Positions 13,467 to 21,773 of a stretch of 64,000 bases of DNA are shown here, piece after piece; position 1 is the first letter of the stretch; every line of letters begins with the position of its first letter. Source of the stretch: Knoellia sp. Soil729. GTDB lineage: Bacteria > Actinomycetota > Actinomycetes > Actinomycetales > Dermatophilaceae. The notes under the pieces were generated by a model. It was not told where the DNA came from. It saw nothing but the letters and a program-made list of their open reading frames with translations, and did not search any database. Location: NCBI RefSeq assembly GCF_001427985.1, contig NZ_LMSA01000002.1, forward strand, positions 153,550 through 217,549, written 5' to 3'. Made by a program: the position numbers and the translations under genes.

Positions 13467-13676
13467 TCAGCGGCTGACGCTGTCCATCGCCCTCCGGAAG
13501 AGGGCCTGGAGCTGGTCCTCCGCGACCGTCCACAGGACGGCGACCAGCCCTGCCGTCATGAGGGTGATGAGCACCCAGCCCGGCACGTCACCGCGCTCCC
13601 GGCGCCGGTGAGCGGTGTCGGCGAGGTCGACGGCGGCGAGCTGCGCCCGCAGGAGCGATCTGTGGATGGTCTGCAT
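13467..13676 (-). CDS. 69-aa pilin-like membrane protein of the Tad cluster
   Basis: A very small protein with a charged N-terminus ending RRRERGDVPGW, then a hydrophobic segment (VLITLMTAGLVAVLW) and a short amphipathic tail (LQALFRRAMDSVSR). Its place directly after tadC and before the TadE genes is where a Flp/Fap major pilin or a small DUF-type pilin would sit. However, the classic Flp pattern (G/xxxxEY) is not evident: after the possible GDVPGW site there is no Glu-Tyr. It may be the major pilin of this locus or a structural adaptor. The ATG has GAAAGG seven bases upstream. Function is inferred from position. Confidence 0.65.
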   Translation of the reverse strand: MQTIHRSLLRAQLAAVDLADTAHRRRERGDVPGWVLITLMTAGLVAVLWTVAEDQLQALFRRAMDSVSR

Positions 13677-13696
13677 GGGGTTGCCTTTCGGAGGTG

Positions 13697-14629
13697 TCAC
13701 ATCGAGAACTTGAGGAACGAGTAACCGGGGAAGATGGCGAAGACCACGGTGATGGGAAGCACGAGAAAGACGACGGGAACCATCATGGCGATCTCCTTCT
13801 TGCCCCCCGCTTCCATGATGAGTCGGCGGCCCTCCTCGCGCACGTCCTGCGCCTGAGCACGCAGGACATCGGCCAAGGGAGTCCCCCGCTCCACCGCGAT
13901 GACGATCCCGTCGACGAAGCGAGTCAGGCTCATGAGTCCCGTACGGTCCGCGAGCCCCTGGAGAGCGATCGGCAGACTTGCTCCAGCTCGTGCATCGGCG
14001 AGACATCGCCGCAGCTCGTCGGACAGCTCGCCACGGGACAGCCGACACACGCGCTCAAGGGCGCCGACGGCGCCTTCACCGGCGCCCACCGCGAGCGCGA
14101 GCAGCTCTGCGACAGTTGGGAACTCAGCCAGCATCCGTTGCTCGCGCCGGTTGGCGCGATGGCTGAGGTAGACGTCGGCAGCAACCACGCCGGACGCGAT
14201 ACCGATGCCAGTGAGGAGGACCACCAGAGCAGCGCTGGACCCGCGCGTGACGGTCGAGAGGGTGCCGAGCGCAAGCATGGCGAGGCCGGCCGACACTCCC
14301 CACATCACCTGTTGGGCACGGAACTTGTCGACGTCCGGCGCCATGCCCGCCCGGAGCAGTCGTCGCCGAACCGAGGGAGCGCCCCCCATGATCCGCTCGA
14401 CGTGGCCGGACATCTCGCCAAGGATGGGAGCGAACAACACGCTGAGGATGCCCCTGGCCTGCACGTTCGGGCTGAGCAGGTTCGAGGGCCGGGGCGTGTC
14501 CTTGAGGTAGGGCAGAACCCGGTCTCCCAGACCCGCCCGGCGGTGCCGTGGGAGCCCGAACCACACGAGGAGCAGGCCGGCGCCGACGAGGAAACCGAGA
14601 ATGGCGCCAGAGCGAGCAAGGCCTGTCAT
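13697..14629 (-). CDS. tadC: type II secretion F-domain protein, TadC-like platform protein
   Basis: A 310-aa membrane protein with a T2SSF domain in the C-terminal half: FPTVAELLALAVGAGEGAVGAL and FVDGIVIAVERGTPLADVL are typical of TadC. Hydrophobic segments lie near 8-25, 115-160 and 280-305. The ATG overlaps the tadB stop (ATGA). With TadB it forms the inner-membrane platform that couples the TadA ATPase to pilus assembly. It ends 20 bp before the small pilin-like gene. Confidence 0.88.
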   Translation of the reverse strand: MTGLARSGAILGFLVGAGLLLVWFGLPRHRRAGLGDRVLPYLKDTPRPSNLLSPNVQARGILSVLFAPILGEMSGHVERIMGGAPSVRRRLLRAGMAPDVDKFRAQQVMWGVSAGLAMLALGTLSTVTRGSSAALVVLLTGIGIASGVVAADVYLSHRANRREQRMLAEFPTVAELLALAVGAGEGAVGALERVCRLSRGELSDELRRCLADARAGASLPIALQGLADRTGLMSLTRFVDGIVIAVERGTPLADVLRAQAQDVREEGRRLIMEAGGKKEIAMMVPVVFLVLPITVVFAIFPGYSFLKFSM

Positions 14630-15495
14630 CGCAGGACCCGCTCGTCCTCGGGCAGGCGTCCGATGCGCATCATGATCCAGTAGGCGACACCCGTCAGCAG
14701 GGCGCCGAGGAACAGCACGATGGCCCCCGCCGCCGAGGAGTACGCCTGCACGGACTCCGGACGGCTGGACAGCATCGCCAGCACGACCCAAGGAGCCGCG
14801 ACCGCGAGGCGGGCTGCGTTGACCGTCCACGCCTGGCGGGTCTCGAGCTCCGCCCGGGTCCGCGAGTCCTCCCTGAGGAACACAGAGAGGGTGCGTAGGA
14901 GCCTGCCGAGGTCGCTCCCGCCGACCTCGCGGGCGATGCGCAACGACTCGATGAGCCGGTCGGCCACTGGGTCGCTCAGTCGCTCCTTGAGACGGTCCAG
15001 GCAGTCATGGAACCTGCCGGTGATGCGGTAGTCCTGACCGAACGCCTGGAAGGCAGGCCGCAGCTCCTCGGGACCTCGCGCACCGAGCTGCGACACCGCC
15101 TCGGGCAGCGACATGCCGGCACGGACGGCCGAGGTGATGTTGTCGACGGCATCGGGCCAGAGGTCACGCAGACGGTTGCGGCGCTTGCGGGCCCGCATCC
15201 GCACGAGGGCGTAGGGACCCCAGGCCGCCATGAGCGCGAAGCAAAGACCGATCGCCGGAACTCCGACCACGGCATACACCAGCAGGAAGACCAGCAGGAA
15301 GGCGACCGAGCACCCCACGAGTAGCGTGCGCGCCGTCACGCTCGGGTAGCCGGCCTGGACCAGCTCGTCGCGCAGGACGCGCATCAGCTTGGGCGGTTCC
15401 GACGTCCGCTCCGGATCCTCTTCGCGCACCCAGCAGCTCCACCAGATGCAGAACAGTCCGGTGCCGAAGAGCAGTCCGAGAATGATGCCCGTCAT
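14626..15495 (-). CDS. tadB: type II secretion F-domain protein, TadB-like platform protein
   Basis: A 289-aa protein with an N-terminal helix, paired helices near 60-95, the cytoplasmic T2SSF domain (VRAGMSLPEAVSQL, SLRIAREVGGSDLGRLL) and C-terminal helices near 230-280. It overlaps tadA upstream and tadC downstream by ATGA, so all three are co-translated. Role: inner-membrane core of the Tad/Flp pilus machine, partner of TadC. Confidence 0.88.
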   Translation of the reverse strand: MTGIILGLLFGTGLFCIWWSCWVREEDPERTSEPPKLMRVLRDELVQAGYPSVTARTLLVGCSVAFLLVFLLVYAVVGVPAIGLCFALMAAWGPYALVRMRARKRRNRLRDLWPDAVDNITSAVRAGMSLPEAVSQLGARGPEELRPAFQAFGQDYRITGRFHDCLDRLKERLSDPVADRLIESLRIAREVGGSDLGRLLRTLSVFLREDSRTRAELETRQAWTVNAARLAVAAPWVVLAMLSSRPESVQAYSSAAGAIVLFLGALLTGVAYWIMMRIGRLPEDERVLR

Positions 15496-16721
15496 GCGGG
15501 CTCCTGGGCCAACAGCGCGGGAAGGTCGTAGCCCGCGCGCTCGAACCGTTCGCGGTGCGGTGGGTAGCCATCGGCGCGCACGAGCTCGCCGCCACGCATG
15601 ACGAACAGGTCCGCGATCTCGATGACGTCGCCCTCCACCCGCCCAGGGACTGCAGCAATCTCCCGGATGCGGCGCGTGCCGTCTCGCTCGAGTGCGGCGT
15701 GGACCACGATGTCGATGGAGCCGGCGACGGTCGGTACAACGAAACGCGAACCCACGTTCTCACCGGCAAGGAGGGGCAAGGTGCACATCTTTGTGATGGC
15801 CTCGCGCGCACTGTTGGCGTGGATGGTGCACATCCCGGGCAGACCCGAGTTCAACGCGATGAGCAGGTCGAGGCTCTCGGCCTGACGGACCTCACCCACG
15901 ATGATGCGGGAGGGCCGCATGCGCAGCGCCTCCTTGACGAGGCGCCGCAACGGCACCTCGCCCGTGCCCTCGAGGGAGGGCTGGCGACACTGCATCGAGG
16001 CCACGTCGCGCATGGGGATCTTCAGCTCGAAGACCTCCTCGCACGTGACCACACGCTCGCGCGCCGGAATCGCCGACGCCAAGCAATTGAGCATGGTGGT
16101 TTTGCCAGCCTGCGTTCCGCCAGCGACAAGAACGTTGAGCCCCGACGCCACGGCGGCCTCGAGAAACTTGGCCGCTTGGCGGGTGACGGTCCCCAGACGC
16201 ACGAGGTCGTCGAGACTGTCGGCCTTGACGATGAACTTGCGCACATTGACATGCCAGTGCTCGCGGGTGATGTCGGGGATGACCACGTGGAGACGGGAAC
16301 CGTCAGGCAGGACGGCATCGACGAACGGGCTCGACAGGTCGACCCGCCGCCCCGACGACTTGAGCATCCGCTCCACGAGGTCGCGGACCTCGTCCCCGGT
16401 CAGCAGGGTGGTGGTCAGCTCGGCCACGCCACCTCGCGCCACGAAAACGCGGGTGGGCTCGTTGATCCATATCTCCTCGACCGTGGGGTCGTCGAAGTAC
16501 TGCTGCAGGGGTCCGAACCCCGCCACGGTGTCCCAGACGGACTTCTCGGCACGCGCGACATCGCCGAGCACGGGCATGCCACCATGCATCGAGCGCTGGT
16601 CGTAGTCAGCCACGGCGTCACGCACGAGCCGCTGCACCGCCTTTGGCTCGCGCGCCGGATCGAGCCCGGAGCGGCGGATGAGTTCGCGGACTTCGGCCTC
16701 GACGGTGCGAACTGCGTCCAC
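15492..16721 (-). CDS. tadA: Tad pilus assembly ATPase
   Basis: A CpaF/TadA-type secretion ATPase, 409 aa with the start used here. It has the N-terminal helical region, GFGPLQQYFDDPTVEEIWIN, Walker A GGTQAGKTT (about 201-208), a Walker B-like RIIVGEVR, and the His-box segment MCTIHANSA. A GTG at 16766 would add 15 residues, but the GTG chosen has GGAGGGG five to six bases upstream. It powers pilus extension from the cytoplasmic face. No TadZ/Ssd gene or prepilin peptidase lies upstream; both must be encoded elsewhere if the system works. Confidence 0.92.
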   Translation of the reverse strand: MDAVRTVEAEVRELIRRSGLDPAREPKAVQRLVRDAVADYDQRSMHGGMPVLGDVARAEKSVWDTVAGFGPLQQYFDDPTVEEIWINEPTRVFVARGGVAELTTTLLTGDEVRDLVERMLKSSGRRVDLSSPFVDAVLPDGSRLHVVIPDITREHWHVNVRKFIVKADSLDDLVRLGTVTRQAAKFLEAAVASGLNVLVAGGTQAGKTTMLNCLASAIPARERVVTCEEVFELKIPMRDVASMQCRQPSLEGTGEVPLRRLVKEALRMRPSRIIVGEVRQAESLDLLIALNSGLPGMCTIHANSAREAITKMCTLPLLAGENVGSRFVVPTVAGSIDIVVHAALERDGTRRIREIAAVPGRVEGDVIEIADLFVMRGGELVRADGYPPHRERFERAGYDLPALLAQEPA

Positions 16722-17009
16722 TGGGACCCCTCCCCTCCACGCCCACGCTGCCCCGAACTGGTTCACGCGTCGGATCGATCGGCCTGTGCTCTGCCTGCAC
16801 AGACATCAAAGCAACTTTGAGGATCGTGGCCGCGGAGTTGTCCACAGGCCGTCACCTCCGAGGTGCGAACCTCAGGTTAACCAGCACAAGACCTCGTGTC
16901 TCGGCGAGTCGACTCACCACATACATCGCGACGTCCGAAGGCGGGAGCAGGCTCTCCTTCGTCCGACATTCGTCGCTCACGGCACCGGCGACGTGCGTCC
17001 CAAGCCCGT
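16722..17009. other. upstream region of the tad cluster
   Basis: I see no gene in these 288 bases. A short perfect palindrome TCAAAG-CAA-CTTTGA lies at 16806-16820, and a GTTAAC-like AT-richer spot at about 16875. The tad promoter is presumably here, but no clear -35/-10 pair is visible. The half-sites TCAAAG and CTTTGA also occur in the larger palindrome at 19536-19587. Confidence 0.4.
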
Positions 17010-17333
17010 TCACTCGCATTCGGGTCCCCCGGCTGGAGTTGCACAGGCGCTGTCCACCGCCGCCATGAGCGCGCTCCCCACGTGGCGTGCCTCGCTCAGG
17101 GTGTACTCGCGGGCACCGATCAGCACGTAGGGGCCGTCGCTCGTCCCTGTTTCGGGATCGACCGACATGACGACGTATGCCGGTATGCCGTCCGCCACGA
17201 GGAGCGGTTCACCGGTGTGAACCCAGTTCTCCTCCCCCAGGTGCACCCCGTGGCGGGTCACGCACCAGCTGGGGCAAGGCGAGACGGGCACAGAGGCACC
17301 CTCGGGCACAAAACTGGATTCGGCCTTCGACAT
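17010..17333 (-). CDS. CPSWC-motif small protein (DUF6907-like)
   Basis: A 107-aa soluble protein. The motif CPSWCVTRH near residues 18-26, followed by a mixed strand/helix domain ending in EARHVGSALMAAVDSA, resembles the DUF6907 group that is common in actinobacteria; the two Cys and the His may bind zinc. The ATG has AGGAGG four bases upstream. A strong hairpin separates it from the coiled-coil gene upstream, so it probably has its own promoter. The molecular function of this group is unknown to me. Confidence 0.65.
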   Translation of the reverse strand: MSKAESSFVPEGASVPVSPCPSWCVTRHGVHLGEENWVHTGEPLLVADGIPAYVVMSVDPETGTSDGPYVLIGAREYTLSEARHVGSALMAAVDSACATPAGGPECE

Positions 17334-17403
17334 CGGTCCTCCTGGAGTGGTGGTTCTGCTCGTCGTGATGACGCTGGCCGATGGTCTGGCGCCGAATGGG
17401 CGA

Positions 17404-17430
17404 GGGCCCCAGGCTGACTGCCTGGGGCCC
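17404..17430. terminator. terminator hairpin after the coiled-coil gene
   Basis: Perfect 11-bp arms GGGCCCCAGGC (17404-17414) and its complement (17420-17430) with a five-base loop, 36 bases beyond the coiled-coil stop on the minus strand. The stem is all but entirely G-C. No long U-run follows. Confidence 0.75.
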
Positions 17431-17465
17431 CCGGTCACTCCTCCGACAGGTGCGAGCTCTCGCGA

Positions 17466-19445
17466 TCAGGCGAGGCAGCCGCCGAGGGCGATCGTCCCGT
17501 CGATGGCGGCGATGCGATCGAGAACCGCCGCGTACTGCGTCTGCAGGCCCGCCACGACCACCTTTTGCGCGGCCACGGCGTCACGGTTGACCTTCTTGGC
17601 GCTTTCCAGCGTGCGCAGGGTTGCCGACTCGGTCACGATCTTGGCGTCGAGGGCATTCAAGTCGGCCTTGGCGGTGGCCAGCGCCGCCTCTTGGTCACTG
17701 ATCTGCTTGTTGAGCGTGTTCAGCGACGTCTGCAGCGGGGTGAGCTGGTTCTGCAGCGACAGGATGGTGTTCTCCGCTGCAGTGATCGTCGAATTGAGGG
17801 TTCCCAGAGCGGCGACGAGCTTGGTGACCTCACCGTCGAGCTTGGTCACCTCGGCGGTCTGCTCGCTGACGGCGGTGTTGGCCGCGGTCAGGGTGGCCTG
17901 CAGCCCTGGCAGGGCGTCCTGGAGGGCCTTGAGCTCGCCCTGCTTCGTCGTGACTTCTGCCTGTGCGGCCGTGAGGTCCCCGGTCAAGCCAGGCAGCTCC
18001 GCCTCCAGCGCGGCAATCTCCGCCTTCTTCGCGGCCACTGCGGCGTTGGCGTCCGTCAGCGCGGTGTTGGCTGCGGTCTGAGCGGCCTTGGCGTCGGCCA
18101 GGGTGCTGGTGGCGCTGGTGACCTGTGCGTTGGCGCCCGCGAGGCTGGTCTGGAGTCCCGGGAGCTGCTGCTGGAGGTTGCTGCTCTCCTGCTGCTTGGC
18201 CGACAGCTGGGAATTCAGCGTGGCCAGCTGGCCCTGAAGCTTGGTGAGGTCACCGTTCAGGGCGGTGATCAGCGCGGTCTTGGTCGCGGCCTGCTGGTCT
18301 GCGGCATCGATGTCCAGCTTGAGCTGGGCAATCCGGTCCCTCAGGTCCTGCTTCTTCTTTTCGGCGTTTCCCTTGATCGCGGCCAGTTCAGCCTCTTTGG
18401 CAGCAAGCTCGGAACGCAGCGCGTCCGCGTCGGCGACCGGCTTCGCGGTGGCGGCGGCGATCTCCCGCTGCTTGGCTGTGATCTCGGCATTCTTCGTGGC
18501 GATGTCGCCCTGAAGGCCTGCGATCTCGGTCTGCAACACGGGCAGCCGGGCCTCGATGGTGCCGATCTGCTGAGTCAGGGTTGTCACGCTCTGCTCCGCG
18601 AGGCGAAGGTTCTCCTCCGCCTTCACGACAGCGGCTGTGGCCGCCGCTGCGTTGGTGTCGGCGGTCTTCGCCGCCGTCTCCAGCGCGGGCAGCGCGGCGC
18701 GGGCGTCGGCCAGCTTCTTGTCGGCCGCGTCCACGAGCTCCTGAGCGGCGTCGCCCTGAGCGACCAGTCGAGCAAGCTCCTCAGTCGCCGTGTCGATCGC
18801 TGCAACCTGGGCATCGACCTTGTCCTGGGCGGAGGTCGCCGCGGCGGTCGCGCTGTCCAGCCGGGTCTTCGCGGCAGCCAGGTCCCCCTCCTTGGCGGCC
18901 AGGCTCCTGACCACTGCGTCCTTCTGCATCTTCAGCGCGGCCAGATCGCTCTGCGCGGCGGTCAGTTGGGTCTGCAGCGGAGTGATCTGGTCCTCGAGCG
19001 CGGTGCGTTCGCCCTGCAGGGTGGTCAGCTCGGTGTTTGCGGTCGCGATGGCTGCGGTCAGCGTGGCCTTGTCTGCCTCGAGCTGGGTCAGCGACATCGT
19101 CACGGTGTCGACCTGGCCGACCAGCGTGGCCTCTACGGTGTCGAGTTCGGCGATCTCCTTCTCCGCAGCGGTGATCTCCGCGGTGAGAGTGTTCTGCCTG
19201 GTGACCAGGGCGGCACGCTCGGCCACCAGGCTGGCGATCTGCTCGGCGTTCAGGCGAGCCGCGGCCTTCAACAGGTTGGGCTGCACGTTGAGGCGGTGCG
19301 ACTGCTGGTTCATGACACCGTTGCAGATGCCGCCACCCGTGGTCGGTGCGGCGGAGGCCGGAGCCCCGAAGGCCATGGCTCCGAAGGCCGCGAAGGTGAC
19401 CAGAGCTGCGAGGCTGCGGCTTGGAGCAGGACGTGAAGACGACAT
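17466..19445 (-). CDS. secreted long coiled-coil protein with N- and C-terminal cysteines
   Basis: A 659-aa protein of unrecognised family. Residues 1-33 form a Sec-type signal peptide ending in APASAAP. Residues about 60-650 are almost uninterrupted heptad-like Ala/Leu/Glu/Lys/Gln sequence, a very long coiled coil. It is broken at intervals by Pro-containing hinges: ITPLQ (154), LPALE (252), LPVLQ (301), LPGLQ (428), LPGLT (484), LPGLQ (512), LTPLQ (568). The only two Cys are C41 (GGGICNG) and C657 (LGGCLA), at opposite ends. There is no sortase signal, lipobox or transmembrane anchor. The gene directly follows a NarL-type two-component system, from which it is separated by a large palindrome, and precedes a terminator. 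It might be a cell-surface or extracellular structural protein; any M23 or NlpC domain typical of cell-wall hydrolases with coiled coils is absent. Confidence 0.8.
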   Translation of the reverse strand: MSSSRPAPSRSLAALVTFAAFGAMAFGAPASAAPTTGGGICNGVMNQQSHRLNVQPNLLKAAARLNAEQIASLVAERAALVTRQNTLTAEITAAEKEIAELDTVEATLVGQVDTVTMSLTQLEADKATLTAAIATANTELTTLQGERTALEDQITPLQTQLTAAQSDLAALKMQKDAVVRSLAAKEGDLAAAKTRLDSATAAATSAQDKVDAQVAAIDTATEELARLVAQGDAAQELVDAADKKLADARAALPALETAAKTADTNAAAATAAVVKAEENLRLAEQSVTTLTQQIGTIEARLPVLQTEIAGLQGDIATKNAEITAKQREIAAATAKPVADADALRSELAAKEAELAAIKGNAEKKKQDLRDRIAQLKLDIDAADQQAATKTALITALNGDLTKLQGQLATLNSQLSAKQQESSNLQQQLPGLQTSLAGANAQVTSATSTLADAKAAQTAANTALTDANAAVAAKKAEIAALEAELPGLTGDLTAAQAEVTTKQGELKALQDALPGLQATLTAANTAVSEQTAEVTKLDGEVTKLVAALGTLNSTITAAENTILSLQNQLTPLQTSLNTLNKQISDQEAALATAKADLNALDAKIVTESATLRTLESAKKVNRDAVAAQKVVVAGLQTQYAAVLDRIAAIDGTIALGGCLA

Positions 19446-19535
19446 GTGGTTTCTCTCCCCAGGCGGGGGCAGATCCCGGTCGGCTGCCCCTCTCCAATCA
19501 CCGTAGGAGCGGGGCAGAGGTGCTCGTGACCACTT

Positions 19536-19587
19536 CGGAGTTCAAAGACCTGAACGCGGACCGATGTTCAGGCCTTTGAACGCTCCG
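19536..19587. promoter_or_regulatory. large palindrome between response regulator and coiled-coil gene
   Basis: Arms CGGAGTTCAAAGACCTGAAC (19536-19555) and GTTCAGGCCTTTGAACGCTCCG (19566-19587, 22 bases) pair with a two-base bulge and one mismatch over a ten-base loop. It lies 85 bases after the response-regulator stop and 90 bases before the coiled-coil start. It may terminate the regulator transcript, be an operator for the coiled-coil promoter, or both. Confidence 0.6.
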
Positions 19588-19671
19588 AACCCGAGAACCG
19601 GCACCGGACAGCGAAACTGGTGGCGGGCGGCATACGACGTCTGTCTGCGACTCATGGCCGCGAAGCCCGTC

Positions 19672-20343
19672 TCACCCCGGCTCGTCGGGGCTGTCCTGAG
19701 CTCCGCTGAGCAGGCGCAGTGCGCTCTCGCGGTCCTTGACCCGCAGCTTGCGCAGCACGGTCGAGACATGGACCCGCACGGTCGTCGGAGAGACGAACAG
19801 CCGCTTGGCGACGTCGTCGGTGGACAGCCCCTGGCTGAGCATCTCCATGACCTCCCACTCGCGAGTGCTCAGCTTGTCCGCGGCCGCGGACTTGCGGAGG
19901 AACTTGCGGCGGGAAGGGCCGCGGAACTCCTGCATGATCCGCATGACCAGGGTGGGCGACATCGCCGCCTCCCCGAGCAGCACCCCTCGCAGGGTCGCGG
20001 ACAGGGTCGCCGGGTCACCTCCCTTGACCAGGTAGCCGGCGGCACCGGCCCGGAGCGAGTCGAACAGGTCGTCGTCTTCGGTCGACTGGGTGAGCATGAC
20101 GACCGCCGTCTGCGGCAGACTCCGGCTGATCTGCTGGGCAGCGCTGATGCCGTTGCCGGGCATGTGGATGTCGAGCAGCGCGACGTCGGGCCGGTGCTCC
20201 CGGGCGAGGGCGACCGCATCGTCGGCGCTCGCGCCCTCGCCGCAGACCTCACACCCGTCGGCCTCGAGCGCTCGACGGATCTGCTCCCGCATGCGGGCGC
20301 TGTCATCGGCGAGGACCAGACGGATCGGCCTCTGCGTCACCAC
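19672..20343 (-). CDS. NarL/LuxR-family response regulator
   Basis: A 223-aa response regulator. The receiver has acidic DD near 13-14, phospho-acceptor Asp near 58 (ALLDIHMPG) and Lys near 109 (YLVKGG). A linker leads to a LuxR helix-turn-helix (LSTREWEVMEMLSQGLS, then TTVRVHVSTVLRKL). Start is GTG 20343, or GTG 20340, overlapping the kinase stop. It forms a two-component pair with the kinase upstream and probably controls genes nearby, including possibly the coiled-coil gene downstream. Confidence 0.92.
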   Translation of the reverse strand: MVTQRPIRLVLADDSARMREQIRRALEADGCEVCGEGASADDAVALAREHRPDVALLDIHMPGNGISAAQQISRSLPQTAVVMLTQSTEDDDLFDSLRAGAAGYLVKGGDPATLSATLRGVLLGEAAMSPTLVMRIMQEFRGPSRRKFLRKSAAADKLSTREWEVMEMLSQGLSTDDVAKRLFVSPTTVRVHVSTVLRKLRVKDRESALRLLSGAQDSPDEPG

Positions 20344-21773
20344 GTGACCGTCACCCTGCTCCCGCTCCCGCGCTCCGACTCGATCTCCAGGGCGCCGGGC
20401 AGAGCCAACGCGCGGTCGCGCATGCTGACCAGGCCGTAGCCGAGGCCGTCGGCCATCGCACGGTCGGCGTCGAAGCCCTGACCGTCGTCCTGGACGACTA
20501 GGCAGCGGCCGTTGTCGCCCTGCGCGAGCCTCACGTGGATCCGCGGCGCCCTGCCGTGGCGCACGGCGTTGGTCACCGCCTCACGCATGATGCGCATGAG
20601 GGCGTGCTTCTGGTCGGCGCGCACGTCGATGGAGTCGTCGACGTCCACCTCGAGGCTGACCCTGTGGCGCTCGGCCAGCTCCGTCGCCGCTCGGTGGAGC
20701 ACGTAGCCCAAGGGTTCGTCCGCCGGTCGGCCGAGAGCCTGCACCGCTGCCCTGGCCTCGTCGAGCCCCCGGTCGCAGGCGGAGATGATGCGGTCACCAG
20801 CGGGAAGGTCCGCGGGCAGCGCATGGCTCTCGGAACGGATGTAGGCCAGCTCCTGGATCACCCCGTCGTGCAGCTCGCGGGCCAGCCGCTGGCGGTCCTC
20901 GAGCACGGCCGCCCGGGCCTGGGCGCTCCAGTACTGGCTGAGCTCACGGGCTGCGCCCACGAGCAGCAGCAGGTAGCACCCGGTGCGCAGGAGGTCGCCC
21001 GTGTAGAGCCAGTCGGTGTAGAGGGAGGGGAAGAGGAGGTAGTTGACCCGCGCGAAGGCCGCGAGCGCGAACGCCGGCCCGAGCCAGCGGAGCAGCTCGT
21101 CGTCGCGCACGGCGGACTGTGCCGCGAAGGCGATGGAGGCAATGAGGAAGCACAGCGTCGCCACGGTCTGCGCGAGGAGCAGGACGGGATGCCCTGTGAG
21201 CAGGGCACCTCCGGAGGACGGCACCTCCGACGCTGGGTCGACGGCCACGGGAAGGTCAGACCGGCTCACCCACAGTGCCGCTCCCAGCACCACGATGAGG
21301 ATGAGGGGCAGCAGCCAGGCATGTCGTCGGGCGAAGGCTTGACGGATGGGCCGGTTCCCGGTCAGTGCCGCCACGACGATGCATACGGCGCCTGCCAGCC
21401 GCACGCTCAGCGGCAGCCAGATCTCCAGCGTTGCGGGTGACACTCCGGGGAGCCGGCTGGTCAGGGTGGACAACGCCAGGCCGCCTGCTGCGAGGAGCAC
21501 AAGACCCTGGGCCAAGAGGCGGTCCTGCCACCGCCGACGACGGATGAAACGCGCATGAACGAGGTAGGCGACCAGCAGGGCGACGCAGGCGTCCGTGGTG
21601 TCGAGCACGAGGTGCAGCGACGGGCTGTGGAAGCCCCAGGTCAGGTAGGGGCTCCACAGAATCAGGGCGGTGACGAGCAGCCCCAGGAGCCACCCCACCG
21701 CGGTCGCGGAAACGCCCGGGCGAACGGGCGCGTGGCTGAGGAGGGAAGCCCCAGACGTCCGCTCATGCCCCAT
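20337..21773 (-). CDS. NarL-type sensor histidine kinase
   Basis: A 478-aa membrane kinase. About eight hydrophobic segments cover residues 24-275 with little extracytoplasmic sequence, suggesting sensing within the membrane. The HisKA_3 dimerisation helix carries the phospho-accepting His near 302 (LARELHDGVIQEL). A HATPase domain follows (EAVTNAVRHG, DDGQGFD, GLVSMRDR). A TAGGAT hexamer sits exactly seven bases before the ATG, so the mRNA is probably leaderless. Its stop overlaps the response-regulator start. Confidence 0.9.
   Translation of the reverse strand: MGHERTSGASLLSHAPVRPGVSATAVGWLLGLLVTALILWSPYLTWGFHSPSLHLVLDTTDACVALLVAYLVHARFIRRRRWQDRLLAQGLVLLAAGGLALSTLTSRLPGVSPATLEIWLPLSVRLAGAVCIVVAALTGNRPIRQAFARRHAWLLPLILIVVLGAALWVSRSDLPVAVDPASEVPSSGGALLTGHPVLLLAQTVATLCFLIASIAFAAQSAVRDDELLRWLGPAFALAAFARVNYLLFPSLYTDWLYTGDLLRTGCYLLLLVGAARELSQYWSAQARAAVLEDRQRLARELHDGVIQELAYIRSESHALPADLPAGDRIISACDRGLDEARAAVQALGRPADEPLGYVLHRAATELAERHRVSLEVDVDDSIDVRADQKHALMRIMREAVTNAVRHGRAPRIHVRLAQGDNGRCLVVQDDGQGFDADRAMADGLGYGLVSMRDRALALPGALEIESERGSGSRVTVTW

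Follow-up and report, generated by a model that had tools for sequence, protein, structure and literature searches.

In SMC/Rad50 proteins, long arms that match in length run antiparallel on either side of the chain's central point, and Gram-positive surface proteins of the PspA and M-protein type are exported and consist largely of coiled coil. In the umbrella toxin of Streptomyces, two coiled-coil segments of one UmbC chain converge to a slender stalk of ~300 Å (PMC11062931). Exported coiled-coil rods are, as a kind, already known from the umbrella stalk and from surface proteins. The present analysis concerns a 659-amino-acid exported coiled-coil protein, in the following termed the rod, and the two-component system next to it, both encoded in a stretch of 64,000 nucleotides (the window; positions 153,550 to 217,549 of contig NZ_LMSA01000002.1) from the high-GC, 3.6-Mb genome of Knoellia sp. 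Soil729. The preferred reading, to which a probability of roughly 0.55 is assigned, is that of an exported, stapled antiparallel hairpin rod which is controlled by the neighbouring two-component system where this is present and acts as extracellular spacer or scaffold.

The rod shares with UmbC the export, the actinobacterial origin, a coiled-coil rod part and a long coil that troubled AlphaFold there too. UmbC is described to carry a twin-arginine translocation (TAT) signal, ring-forming ALF repeats and a C-terminal toxin domain (PMC11062931), whereas the rod consists of coil only and bears a terminal Cys pair; neither an ALF repeat nor a toxin domain is found among the 25 listed of 42 Pfam families, and the coil reaches the C-terminus. 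As regards SMC/Rad50 proteins, NCBIfam SMC models match the coil weakly. The rod differs from these proteins in having no ATPase head (by inspection) or hinge domain and in possessing a signal peptide and the terminal Cys pair, and membership was rejected at a score for SMC_prok_B of 115.3 bits vs a cut-off of 567. Antiparallel matched arms of their type are indicated by length, register and charge data, while AlphaFold speaks against them. The PspA and M-protein type differs in its anchoring, as the rod has no LPXTG or choline-binding part and ends with GGCLA right after the coil.

The rod gene (17466-19445, minus strand) was recognized as an open reading frame with its translation and by its 15-member family, in which it belongs to the short length class. 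A signal peptide (residues 1-32; 19350-19445, minus strand) with a predicted cleavage site at ASA|A is apparent by inspection, and a heptad coil spans the protein almost end to end. Strongly hydrophobic residues recur with a power of 37.5 at 3.5 residues vs 2.2 at 3.667 residues; an alanine-rich helical antifreeze protein, characterized by 11-residue periodicity, was rejected because the peak lies at 3.5 and not at 3.67. Cys occurs at positions 41 and 657 only. According to sequence and family alignment, the codon for Cys41 (19323-19325) is located inside a conserved GICNGV motif and that for Cys657 (17475-17477) inside a conserved IALGGC end, both on the minus strand. Seven Pro (156, 253, 302, 429, 485, 513 and 570, by inspection) stand in L/T-P-x-L contexts. 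A lipoprotein was rejected, since Cys41 sits in GGGIC beyond the cleavage site (by inspection), as was an LPXTG-anchored surface protein, the C-terminus reading IALGGCLA without a sorting signal. The preliminary description of this locus, made from the sequence, thus proved correct as regards the exported, near-continuous heptad coil, the two Cys at opposite ends, the seven Pro in similar contexts and the lack of an anchoring or wall-binding domain (no LPXTG, no lipobox). The putative Pro hinges that it described are conserved in part, according to the family alignment: Pro570 (17736-17738, minus strand) precedes the last Cys by 87 residues in 14 of 15 members and by 88 in the other (G120), whereas Pro156 (18978-18980, minus strand), 115 residues past the first Cys, is kept in only 10.

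Pfam and NCBIfam contain no rod-specific model. No NCBIfam model scored over its cut-off; five unrelated coil models exceeded the Pfam cut-off on partial stretches of the rod (ATG16, Phage_scaffold, Fez1, MscS_porin and SlyX), and were rejected as identities because the matches are partial, mutually inconsistent and read as coil composition. A sequence search of the PDB yielded 13 matches to coils such as lamin, the gp26 needle, myosin, sigma-1 and Smc.

Full-length searches with the rod matched 7 of 98 relatives; this and all following family counts include the genome under study. Two of the seven were dropped, namely G009 (E-value 3.4e-5) and G052 (E-value 2.0e-6), whose contig (L019 1-3738) resembles an animal myosin heavy chain and, although part of a bacterial assembly, is probably a contamination. 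A further candidate, G772 (E-value 2.8e-4), was rejected as an FtsX-like permease. At a threshold of 1e-10, the full-length search retrieved the rod from 9 of 396 genomes of the order, and none was found in plasmids and phages. A model of the N-terminal 56 residues gave the same number in the order (9/396), 8 of 186 genomes in the family (one degenerate) and 4 of 396 in the phylum (one false). The closest named relative of the rod originates from Promicromonospora soli. Fifteen members with both ends, own protein included, were compared; G632 (contig edge, masked stretch) and G874 are counted among the 16 rod genomes and were left out of the comparison. The G874 copy (L065 7416-8684) is degenerate, the coil being lost after an intact N-terminal motif. 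The members share 37-78 % identity with the rod of the window and fall into three classes by Cys-Cys spacing: five short (616-619), nine long (728-734) and one compact (398). Every one of the 15 mature proteins contains exactly two Cys, placed in a GICNGV-like motif after the signal peptide and a few residues from the C-terminus, and this number and position exceed chance. The literature, as far as searched, holds no description of the family. This agrees with the earlier statement that no described system of this make-up is known; as far as these searches extend, the family is rare and apparently undescribed, its new part being the length-locked, Cys-closed and domain-free form.

A short central Gly/Asn/Pro loop (KGNAEKKK in the own protein, residues 358-365; 18351-18374, minus strand), which the preliminary description does not mention, emerges from alignments and registers as the site of register change and, against AlphaFold, as the probable point of chain reversal. 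In MAFFT class alignments, for which the gap penalty was raised and gaps are thereby suppressed, the internal indels of the long class are confined to the loop; the short class shows one more, of 4 residues, ~15 residues ahead of it. Averaged over alignment columns, helix breaking in the long class is strongest at the loop at all three scan windows (z 4.9, 4.7 and 4.1); in the short class the loop leads at two of them (z 3.6 and 3.1) and ranks third at the widest, 15. In single sequences, it is the strongest break in 7 of 15 members at scan windows of 7 and 9 and in 5 of 15 at 11 and 13.

With the loops anchored by hand, the N-terminal arm exceeds the C-terminal arm by 18-28 residues in all 15 members (short class: 25, 25, 24, 18, 25; long class: 24, 24, 23, 23, 23, 24, 21, 24, 23; compact member: 28), over a range of C-terminal arm lengths of 185-356 residues (about 296 short, 354 long, 185 compact). 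Both arms contain 28-residue repeats, lag 28 being first in the C-terminal arm and level with lag 84 in the N-terminal arm, and the long class differs from the short by four 28-residue insertions, two on either side of the loop. The nearly invariant Gly17 of the alignment lies 11 residues past the first Cys. A fold-back at this residue would move the first Cys by ~23 residues, level with the last Cys, and the constant excess of ~24 residues fits such a turn.

Of 636 windows of 28 residues, 602 stay in the heptad register of the arm to which they belong. Registers of the N-terminal arm are identical across all 15 members; over the loop they shift by 1-6 in 12 members and are unchanged in three. 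Among the 241 offsets of an antiparallel charge scan, +8 relative to the loop centre scored best, and the loop-centred antiparallel e/g charge register ranked first of 37 in the short as well as in the long class. Because arm lengths, register and charge pairing match, a hairpin with meeting Cys is favoured over the end-to-end linkage that had been named as the other outcome of a disulfide. The latter corresponds to parallel coiled-coil dimers or single-helix rods joined by terminal disulfides into fibres, an arrangement suggested by the Cys at opposite sequence ends, by the single continuous helices of AlphaFold and, mildly, by the parallel g-e charges of the long class (z -1.23). It is considered very unlikely, since parallel pairing gives no overall signal (z -0.15; short class z +1.63), 12 of 15 members show a register shift of arbitrary size at the loop and the arm lengths stay matched across classes. 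An antiparallel homodimer, with chains side by side over their full length, each N-terminal arm on the C-terminal arm of the other, two intermolecular Cys-Cys bonds and a rod about twice as long, would use identical residue pairing, so that arm-length and charge data fit it equally, and the continuous helix that AlphaFold models across the tip of the own protein would suit it. Relatives, however, have runs of Pro and Gly as well as free indels in their loops, which points to chain reversal, and local concentration should favour intramolecular pairing; the homodimer is regarded as unlikely.

In the hairpin reading, the exported rod would consist of two antiparallel coiled-coil arms connected at the distal tip by the short loop. 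Ahead of the conserved Gly turn, the N-terminal segment would fold back such that the first Cys meets the last, and a disulfide would then staple the open end. The product would be a stiff rod with a fixed length of ~27, 43 or 52 nm depending on the class (own protein ~43 nm); outside the membrane, in the wall zone or the matrix, it might perhaps serve as a spacer or scaffold of defined length. A DsbA-like protein (over the Pfam cut-off) is encoded in the same genome.

Several results weigh against this reading or qualify its support. The loop-centred antiparallel pairing beat shuffles within heptad positions in the short class (z -3.4; 1 of 400 shuffles as low) and in the long class (z -4.4; 0 of 400), but its register had been selected from these very data and the rows are related to each other, both of which flatter the z values and the first also the counts. 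In a first binning, moreover, the long class fell into two bins and the loop-centred register did not stand out; it emerged after rebinning that kept the long class together. The compact member is without charge complementarity (z +1.29; 370 of 400 shuffles as low). In the rod of the window taken alone, the loop is never the strongest break at any scan window size. If growth is modular in 28-residue units, equal growth of both arms twice has a chance of ~0.1 (by hand), so that matched arm growth alone is no more than suggestive of a hairpin. A search of the own genome for VKOR returned no match. Structure prediction, performed with two sequences (the rod of the window and that of P. soli), likewise gave no hairpin at the loop in either of two AlphaFold runs. 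The full-length model is all helix (mean predicted local distance difference test score (pLDDT) 72, predicted template modelling score (pTM) 0.34), its breaks falling at mature residues 199-202 and 394-401, away from the loop, and a 146-residue tip fragment was modelled as a single helix that runs uninterrupted through the loop (pLDDT 90.5). The authors of the umbrella-toxin report found coiled coils wrongly folded back by AlphaFold (PMC11062931), and for this reason the models are weak evidence either way; they are nevertheless the sole structural result and do not support the hairpin.

On the minus strand, the order of genes is sensor kinase, response regulator, a 226-bp gap with a palindrome, rod and a DUF6907-like gene. 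The regulator (19672-20343, minus strand) is of the NarL/LuxR type with the Pfam domains Response_reg and GerE, and the kinase (20337-21773, minus strand) carries HisKA_3 and HATPase_c; the pair thereby has the same domain content, receiver plus GerE and HisKA_3 plus HATPase_c, as NarL/FixJ systems with HisKA_3 kinases. It differs from these in the N-terminal membrane domain of the kinase, which has no Pfam match over cut-off (MASE3 25.1 vs 31) and is rare. With a profile of this sensor domain, used for co-occurrence, 5 of 396 genomes of the order were retrieved, four of them with rod (Fisher 6e-7 by genome and 4e-4 by genus, kinship uncorrected). The domain was detected in 8 of 16 rod genomes vs 0 of 14 rod-free genomes, the latter hand-picked and including six of the same genus. 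Kinase and regulator adjoin the rod in 6 of 15 loci, co-directionally in the own genome, G001, G076 and G107 and divergently in G875 and G889, and are found elsewhere in the genome, on another contig than the rod, in two more (G057 and G120).

The palindrome (19540-19581) is composed of two inverted copies of a 16-bp dyad, GTTCA-N6-TGAAC, in the same arrangement as in G001. The copies, GTTCAAAGACCTGAAC (19540-19555) and GTTCAGGCCTTTGAAC (19566-19581, inverted relative to the first and completing the palindrome), both unstranded, were defined by motif sites and genome scan, the second also by RNA fold; at up to two mismatches, the two arms are the only occurrences of the 16-bp arm in the whole genome. 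Seven exact dyads were detected in 367 kb, all in loci of kinase-bearing genomes: two each in the own genome and G001, one each in G875 and G057, and one in the own DUF6907-like gene. They precede rods in three species, including G875 (G889 carries the dyad at the corresponding position with one mismatch), and in a fourth, G057, a secreted 1615-amino-acid Ig-like protein encoded ~40 bp behind the dyad near the kinase. Four of these seven sites were used to derive the motif, and the expectation of 0.05 exact sites, resting on single-base frequencies, is too low; 21 one-mismatch dyads were observed vs 2.2 expected, so that the true expectation of exact sites may be ten times higher. The regulators of the own genome, G001, G057, G875 and G889 share VRVHVS in a DNA-binding helix which we take to be the recognition helix, and those of G076 and G107, from whose loci the dyad is absent, have VRTHIS. 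GTTCA-N6-TGAAC is a candidate operator, via which kinase and regulator would control the rod gene in species carrying them.

Alternatively, the kinase/regulator pair and the rod may be neighbours by chance or shared transfer, with no regulation and the palindrome a mere transcription terminator. The palindrome does follow the regulator gene in the own genome and G001 and its RNA fold is very stable (z -5.95 and -8.31, respectively), but no run of U follows it, a terminator scan found none there (0), and in G875 and G889, where the pair is divergent from the rod, the dyad follows no 3' end. In line with an absence of regulation, the pair went undetected in 6 of the 15 members, in a genome-wide search covering all but P. 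soli, the sensor domain is unmatched in 8 of the 16 rod genomes (G004, G298, G355, G400, G431, G632, G797 and G874), and the fifth kinase genome of the order, G100, is without rod by full-length search; against it stands the unlinked co-occurrence of kinase and rod in G057 and G120. Overall, this alternative appears rather unlikely. Of the preliminary description, the NarL-type pair and the large palindrome beside the rod are borne out by domains and sequence. A probable functional link is backed by co-occurrence, motif sites and the shared regulator helix, albeit not as a general one: neighbourhoods vary among members, so that the differing neighbourhood which the preliminary description had named as refuting applies in part, while the terminal Cys were retained throughout.

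The G107 rod is 76 % identical to that of the window and 48 % to that of its congener G076 (L037 574-2760, L016 8618-10603), whereas the G107 regulator is 54 % identical to the own and 82 % to the G076 regulator. These conflicting identities point to a horizontal exchange of the rod gene under a two-component system that stayed in place. The DUF6907-like gene downstream of the rod (17010-17438, minus strand; 24.7 bits vs a Pfam cut-off of 26) is a possible associate. DUF6907 copies also occur downstream of the rod in G001 and, over the cut-off, beside the kinase/regulator pair in G057 (L075 5409-6324), where the rod is located on another contig; the literature search found no occurrence of DUF6907. 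The exact dyad inside the window's gene (17207-17222) is perhaps due to chance. In G100 (L082 7570-12677), the kinase gene lies beside that of an exported PKD/TSP_3 protein, which is weakly similar to a protein beside the rod in G057 (27 % over 143 residues, pairwise E-value 1e-5). Just downstream of the rod region, the window contains what we take to be a Tad/Flp pilus-like cluster (13467-16766; CpaF-like ATPase, TadB/TadC-like membrane proteins); none was seen near the rod in G001.

A more far-reaching and rather doubtful view is that the rod represents a headless exported counterpart of the SMC arm, i.e. a monomolecular stapled hairpin with a length set in matched 28-residue steps on both arms, which a dedicated two-component system would deploy, along with Ig-like surface proteins, as extracellular ruler or spacer. 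If the preferred reading is true, some actinobacteria build covalently closed extracellular helical rods of locked length, which would change only by equal steps in both arms. They would represent a rare case of a nanometre-defined protein testable as spacer in the Gram-positive envelope, and the candidate operator would offer a direct way into a family of sensor kinases that has no known signal.

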